Assembly (NCBI GenBank): GCA_903889245.1
Contig: CAISWQ010000093.1
Span: forward strand, 1 to 60,752
Source of the DNA: an uncultured Lentisphaerota bacterium
Lineage (GTDB): Bacteria > Verrucomicrobiota > Kiritimatiellia > CAIQIC01
Reading direction: 5' to 3'
DNA: 60,752 nt
Below are positions 50,564 to 51,339 of this stretch, one piece after another. The notes beneath the pieces are model-generated. The model ran no database searches. It saw only the letters and a list, made by a program, of their open reading frames with translations, and had not been told where the DNA came from. The number at the start of each line of letters is the position of its first letter. The first letter of the stretch is position 1. A program made the position numbers and the translations under genes.

Positions 50564-50647
50564 CAACAGCCTCAACAGGATTGTCCGTTCTATCAGCGGG
50601 CATATCACACCAAAACATCACATCGCCCCAAAAAATAGTTTGACGCC

Positions 50648-50677
50648 CATGTGCACACTTTGCAAAGTGTGCACATG
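50648..50677. promoter_or_regulatory. Perfect 30-bp palindrome overlapping the regulator start codon
   Basis: CATGTGCACACTTTG (50648-50662) is followed by its exact reverse complement (50663-50677). The ATG at 50675 is the last three bases. It shares the 20-bp core with the palindrome at 51245, and TTGACG at 50640 could be a -35 box just ahead. Confidence 0.85.
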
Positions 50678-51247
50678 AATATGGTCTATCCAATGCAACC
50701 AACGTTGTGGCGCACCTGCCGGGCGCTCGCTAATCGGCGACGGTTGGAAATGCTTCGGTTGCTGATGCGTTACCCGGGCCTGACAGTCTCTGCCGTATCC
50801 CGGCGCCTTCACCTATCCCTCCCGGTAACCAGCAGCTATTTACGGGCTCTCGAAGCACGCGGGCTTTTGACAGTCCAGCGGAACGGTCGGTGGGTGAAAT
50901 ACAGTCCAGGTTCGACTGTGACATCGAGCTTGACGGCGGGTCTGATCGCAGCGATTCAAGCAACTTTCGAGGGGGATCCCCACGCTCTGCCTCATGTATT
51001 CAAGCTGGCCACTGCTTTTACCCATCCCACCCGTATTCTGATCATTCAAATCCTCCGTACACAACCTCACAGCCTTGCTCAACTGCAAGCGCGTACCCAC
51101 CTTTCGAGATGGGCGCTGTTGCGACACGTTCGAAAGTTGGAGGCCCGCGGCTTCATAAAAACAATGGATGATTTCCTCATTCTGGCAAAGCCCTCCGATC
51201 AGTTGGGGCAAGCACTGTTGTGCCTGGCCGCGTCCAAGAGTGCATGA
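50675..51247 (+). CDS. Tandem winged-helix (ArsR-like) transcriptional regulator, 190 residues
   Basis: Two similar winged-helix domains: residues 7-75 (WRTCRALANRRRLEMLRLL, then LSLPVTSSYLRALEARGLL) and about 103-165 (FKLATAFTHPTRILIIQIL, then LSRWALLRHVRKLEARGFI). No metal-binding Cys cluster is seen, so it is not a classical arsenic sensor. There is no Shine-Dalgarno upstream; the start lies inside a perfect palindrome, and the stop TGA is the first three bases of a second palindrome. GTG 50651 and ATG 50684 are other possible starts. The gene looks less GC-rich than its neighbours, hinting at transfer. Probably autoregulated. Confidence 0.82.
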   Translation: MNMVYPMQPTLWRTCRALANRRRLEMLRLLMRYPGLTVSAVSRRLHLSLPVTSSYLRALEARGLLTVQRNGRWVKYSPGSTVTSSLTAGLIAAIQATFEGDPHALPHVFKLATAFTHPTRILIIQILRTQPHSLAQLQARTHLSRWALLRHVRKLEARGFIKTMDDFLILAKPSDQLGQALLCLAASKSA

Positions 51248-51270
51248 GCACACTTTGCAAAGTGTGCTCA
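51245..51270. promoter_or_regulatory. Perfect 26-bp palindrome starting at the regulator stop codon
   Basis: TGAGCACACTTTG is followed by its exact reverse complement. The core GCACACTTTGCAAAGTGTGC is identical to the upstream copy; only the outer arms differ (TGA/TCA against CATGT/ACATG). The regulator stop is the first codon of the palindrome. Confidence 0.85.
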
Positions 51271-51278
51271 CGCATCCC

Positions 51279-51314
51279 GAAAAGAGAAAGGCGCCCTCTT
51301 GCGAGGACGCCTTT
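51279..51314 (-). terminator. Terminator of the RRM protein gene
   Basis: Stem AAAGGCGCCCTC (51287-51298) with GAGGACGCCTTT (51303-51314), one mismatch, four-base loop. On the minus strand it is followed by CTCTTTT, and it lies about 26 bp past the RRM gene stop. Confidence 0.8.
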
Positions 51315-51339
51315 CGTTGCTTGTGACTACCGGGTGGGC

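Follow-up and report, generated by a model that had tools for sequence, protein, structure and literature searches.

Our analyses have identified a lineage-expanded family of two-domain winged-helix regulators whose genes are accompanied by near-perfect palindromes. The observations as a whole are best explained, in our judgement probably, by a family of self-repressing regulators in which each protein would have its own private set of dispersed palindromic sites. The member described first lies in the window, i.e. the whole 60,752-nucleotide stretch of DNA that was analysed, and seven paralogues of it are present elsewhere in the same genome (G000), that of a lake bacterium.

A winged-helix gene bounded by two palindromes

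The initial annotation had described a gene lying between perfect palindromes of 30 and 26 bp that share an identical 20-bp core, and the coordinates, the perfection of both palindromes and the core were all verified. The upstream palindrome (CATGTGCACACTTTGCAAAGTGTGCACATG, 50648–50677) ends in the ATG at 50675 and the downstream palindrome (TGAGCACACTTTGCAAAGTGTGCTCA, 51245–51270) begins with the stop codon TGA; they are the longest two perfect palindromes of the whole window. The 20-bp core common to both, for which the chance expectation is zero, is present in 2 copies in the window when up to 3 mismatches are allowed and in none of 100 shuffles, and the 5.26-Mb genome contains 4 copies of it, viz. 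the two at the window gene and one each at C22:2620 and C28:7682. The features of the locus are as follows.

50640–50645, + strand: −35-like TTGACG, lying 23 bp before the centre of the palindrome (an offset shared by L083, L084, L072, L073, L079, L086, L087 and others)
50648–50677, no strand: upstream perfect 30-bp palindrome, presumed operator, with the −10 region expected in its right half
50663–50668: putative −10 region CAAAGT, placed by the 17-bp spacing to the −35
50675–51247, + strand: two-domain ArsR-type winged-helix regulator, 190 aa (stop TGA, 51245–51247)
50705–50974, + strand: first winged-helix domain, residues 11–100 (AlphaFold2 model, Pfam)
50987–51232, + strand: second winged-helix domain, residues 105–186
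51245–51270, no strand: downstream palindrome, 26 bp and perfect, which includes the stop codon

No Shine-Dalgarno sequence is visible before the ATG, as had been annotated, and the start at the end of the palindrome is conserved, the homologues L086 and L087 having an ATG in the equivalent place. The base composition of the gene, which had been described as different from that of its neighbours, is indeed distinct (GC 56%, GC3 60%, against a GC3 of 83.4% with sd 5.1% and a minimum of 73% for the other called genes of the window), and GC3 is also low (65–75%) in the seven paralogues. The comparison of L086 with L087 gave a dN of 0.10 and a dS of 0.39, indicating that the protein is under purifying selection.

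The AlphaFold2 model of the window protein (mean pLDDT 94, pTM 0.87) is confident both for the two domains and for their arrangement. The sequence matches HTH_5 (1.7e-12) and NF033788 (72.1 bits, cut-off 55), and the HlyU, NolR and SmtB chains in the PDB each match one half of the protein only. The recognition helices differ between the two domains. A place in an anti-phage system was rejected, the similarity to Csa3/CasR being merely that of generic winged helices.

Eight paralogues, each with its own palindrome

Eight genes for two-domain regulators, each encoding two ArsR-type winged helices, are found in the genome, and every one of them has a palindrome type of its own, the sequences differing between paralogues. 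These palindromes follow a common plan, viz. a 7-bp half-site, four central bases and the complement of the half-site, with matching flanks. They are located at or near the stop codon in 8/8 genes, upstream of the start in 7/8 (the upstream palindrome of the C125 paralogue is degenerate) and between the two domains in 6/8, and successive palindromes of a gene are spaced at steps of about 340 bp. The window gene is without the linker residues that hold the middle palindrome in six paralogues, and the C29 paralogue has no clear middle palindrome. None of the regulator genes with a single related domain in the same genome, which served as controls, has comparable palindromes. The middle and downstream palindromes of the C125 paralogue (L124) were observed to have non-palindromic centres in opposite orientations.

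Conserved promoter geometry across the family

Relatives of the regulator are found in the same genus, family, order and class; among 145 genomes from the phylum, 14 were positive at E 1e-20, all from the same class, and the MAGs of the same genus carry the label uncultured Lentisphaerae. The initial annotation would have been refuted by homologous genes without flanking cores, and this did not turn out to be the case: most homologues are flanked by palindromes, each of its own sequence. The upstream palindrome reaches 8/9 pairs or better in 43/66 family members against 5.8% of random segments and is perfect in 27/66 against 1.9%, while in the remaining 23/66 the test used gives no clear palindrome at this position. 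A TTGACA-like −35 lies 22–24 bp before the palindrome centre at 16 of the 43 regulator palindromes (0–1 at control offsets), an ATG is found at +11 to +13 from the centre at 17 of the 43 (2 at the control offset), and the fixed distances of the palindrome to the −35 box and the ATG hold in distant relatives as well. One homologue in G002 (L065, C189), in which the match stops after the linker, is apparently a truncated or decaying copy.

Given a 17-bp spacer, the −10 would fall in the right arm of the palindrome and the transcript would start at the ATG, i.e. the palindrome would cover a leaderless promoter. This leaderless-type geometry is common to the window gene and its homologues in G004 and G005. 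Other members, including the linker-bearing paralogues of the window genome, have a leader with a Shine-Dalgarno sequence between palindrome and ATG, and hence a leaderless start is characteristic of only some members. The suggestion that the gene is a leaderless autorepressor thus gains a promoter, palindrome and start geometry that is conserved across the family, and leaderless autorepression through the upstream palindrome, in which binding and repression would both be due to the encoded protein, is well supported in terms of sequence.

Dispersed palindromes away from the regulator genes

Palindromes of the same types also occur as solo copies scattered over the chromosome. The pattern CACACYT-N4-ARGTGTG has 58 exact matches in the genome and 0 in the control, a number far above that of the gene-flanking copies, and the palindrome types of C46 and C91 have 18 matches and again 0 in the control. 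The copy number in G000 is about 1–12 solo sites per palindrome type. The occurrence of the sites follows that of the gene: 18/19 relatives lacking the gene at E 1e-10 have zero palindrome sites, and G046, a genome from another family, has two regulators to which its two main site types correspond. In the three species of the genus the solo sites differ from the operators of their own genome by 1.88 mismatches, compared with 3.06 (sd 0.17) when permuted, 0/5000 permutations being as good; this result is driven mainly by G000, where own-genome matching is strong (35/38), matching being moderate in G003 (12/19) and weak in G002 (4/8).

Four exact palindrome sites were also observed in G040, a relative in which no two-domain regulator was detected. 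Solo sites in G000 at C33:82876, C51 and C104:16416, and at C65 and C97, are of types (TTGCACACTTGCGC.. and GCCCACACTTAGC..) for which no closely matching regulator was found; these types are possibly relics of lost regulators. The 188-bp paired sites at C11 and C18 were considered as a mini-element and rejected, their inner sequences being unrelated.

Sites kept in place with changed sequence

Several sites are found at equivalent positions in more than one species, the palindrome being retained and its sequence differing. The clearest example is the L172/L214 site, which lies within the coding part of a gene containing a stretch that resembles alpha-amylase; the 10 differences at this site pair off as mirror images, exactly 5 times (P about 1e-4). 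At other orthologous slots some changes are paired and others single, and at one slot the sequences are identical. The sequences thus argue strongly for symmetric change of the palindrome at the one place and are suggestive of it elsewhere.

Genomic context and a possible relation to REP-like elements

The initial annotation had also proposed a stand-alone mobile cassette. In favour of mobility, the cassette at C91 of G000 and its sister cassettes in G002 and G003 lie in unrelated neighbourhoods (those of G002 and G003 being syntenic with each other), and the related cassettes of G004 and G005 lie in different ones. The G005 cassette adjoins DNA that has counterparts in G004 and G000, both of which lack the cassette (left-flank matches at G004:C79 and G000:C36), the G005 contig stopping just past the cassette, and no pair of insertion and empty site with both flanks was found among the relatives compared. 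Against mobility, the window copy is syntenic with that of G004 beside a MATE gene, and viral contigs and plasmids held no copies; a viral or plasmid origin was rejected on the latter ground, PHROGs having given only weak generic regulator matches for one paralogue. The mobile reading is hence only suggested.

These observations bear on an alternative, which we regard as unlikely, that the palindromes belong to REP-like repeats, either mobile or self-copying, for which the winged-helix gene serves as carrier or partner, as the RAYT transposase does for REPs, the flanking copies marking the ends and the solo sites being non-autonomous descendants. The palindromes are indeed multi-copy, mostly intergenic and gene-flanking, the solo copies share partly non-palindromic centres (CAAG, AGGA), and the homology of cassettes stops near the palindromes in L128 versus L064 and in L086 versus L087; the different neighbourhoods in relatives and the low GC3 of all eight genes would also fit. 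However, the protein has no transposase domain, the copies per type are few, and insertion does not predict solo sites that are orthologously placed between species yet changed in sequence. Moreover, the homology of L086 and L087 extends at least 44 bp beyond the right palindrome, and because of this the palindromes are not established as element ends. REPs driven by RAYT were rejected for this genome, since its two genuine RAYT-type genes (PF01797; G000:C91:33535, L177, and C113:1362, L178) carry their own, quite different palindromic repeats.

In the REPtron, REP sequences occur with RAYT (TnpA-REP) genes, a Y1 transposase gene being flanked by palindromes that are also dispersed (PMC2817692, PMC8266576), and REPs number over 100 per genome (PMC2817692). 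The present family resembles it in having genes flanked by palindromes that are also dispersed, mainly outside genes, with a palindrome type for each gene. It differs from the REPtron in that the window protein is a DNA-binding regulator without a Y1_Tnp match and not a Y1 HUH transposase, the copy number is low and the upstream palindrome sits on a promoter.

Position and proposed role of the dispersed sites

By gene calls made with a simple codon model rather than a standard gene finder, 36/38 of the solo sites examined in G000 are intergenic, in a genome with a coding density of 88%. If these proteins were ordinary autoregulated repressors, the dispersed sites would be the promoter operators of a conventional regulon, as the palindrome overlapping the regulator's own promoter might lead one to expect. 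We consider this improbable: none of the 65 solo sites in three species has a −35 at the operator offset, just 5 of the 36 intergenic sites are flanked by divergent genes, and the neighbouring genes are heterogeneous (viz. HPPK, fumarase-type lyase, TerC, M50 peptidase, ABC transporter and LacI), no common function being apparent in the ten scanned. Least probable of all is the proposal that the palindromes function as hairpins, in RNA or in DNA, at transcript ends or in mRNA stability, that the regulators do not bind to them and that gene conversion keeps them identical to the flanking copies. This would suit a near-perfect symmetry across 26–50 bp and the excess of solos in convergent spacers (11, where about 6 of 36 are expected by length) but leaves unexplained the fixed −35 and ATG spacing at the regulators and the absence of palindromes from genomes without the gene, and is opposed by the conserved site within a coding gene and by the finding of a T5 tract near just 3/65 solo palindromes, the hairpin with a following T tract of an intrinsic terminator being absent from nearly all of them.

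A family of self-repressing regulators with private palindromes accounts for these results in the following manner. The window gene would belong to a family of orphan regulators, expanded in this lineage, in which every chain carries two ArsR-type winged helices; each regulator is predicted to bind its own near-perfect palindrome. Since the upstream palindrome overlaps the core promoter, the protein would repress its own, probably leaderless, transcript; the same protein would also bind the copies at the stop codon, inside the gene in most paralogues and at dispersed, mostly intergenic sites. Sites and regulator vary together over evolution, presumably because their specificity shifts jointly. 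For the dispersed sites, an architectural, decoy or titration role may be likelier than classical promoter control, because they show neither a promoter signature nor a shared function of their neighbours; this is the weakest step of the scheme. As a counterpoint, since the recognition helices of the two domains differ, a single chain acting as a pseudo-dimer would not have to meet perfect symmetry in its site; a symmetric site would then call for the pairing of like domains from two chains, or for a role of the palindrome as a hairpin.

Comparison with known systems

Many, but not all, ArsR/SmtB members have a metal-binding cysteine/histidine motif. The window protein has isolated cysteines only and no CxC-type motif. 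It is similar to ArsR/SmtB regulators in the winged-helix fold of each half and in the palindrome overlapping its own predicted promoter; it differs from them in being a chain of two full winged-helix domains and not a homodimer of single ones, in having no adjacent target operon identified at the window gene, and in the repetition of the palindrome at the stop codon and at dispersed places. Chromosome organisers (viz. MatP-matS, Noc and ParB-parS) are dedicated DNA-binding proteins with dispersed palindromic sites that lack promoters. The present sites, if occupied as proposed, would be alike in being dispersed, palindromic, promoterless and served by a dedicated protein, and would differ in that a genome has eight protein-site pairs side by side, with a fast change of specificity and autorepression apparently exerted through the same palindrome.

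No description of such a regulator-palindrome family or layout was found in the literature searched. It is conceivable, and we propose it tentatively, that these genes represent a new class of system, in which paralogous self-repressing tandem-winged-helix proteins have private dispersed palindromes that are rewritten symmetrically in place as specificity changes, forming several orthogonal networks per chromosome. If binding is confirmed, one genome would provide eight natural, mutually distinct repressor-operator pairs, and the many homologues, together with the palindromes that match them, would be useful for studying the evolution of winged-helix specificity. The results also raise the question of why dispersed palindromes stay in place while their sequence tracks a regulator.

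Other repeats in the window

A terminator-like inverted repeat (AAAGGCGCCC..GGACGCCTTT, 51287–51316) is located between the regulator gene and the convergent gene for an RNA-binding protein. The Rfam matches at this repeat are weak and below the gathering score, and a known RNA element near the locus was rejected, Rfam giving no match above that score. Another family of repeats, TTCCAA-N(1-4)-TTGGAA, is present at 14 places in the window (expected about 0.01); these repeats, which often read in frame as FPSLGK or FQGLEK, constitute a separate REP-like family and are also found beside the solo sites of C22 and C28.
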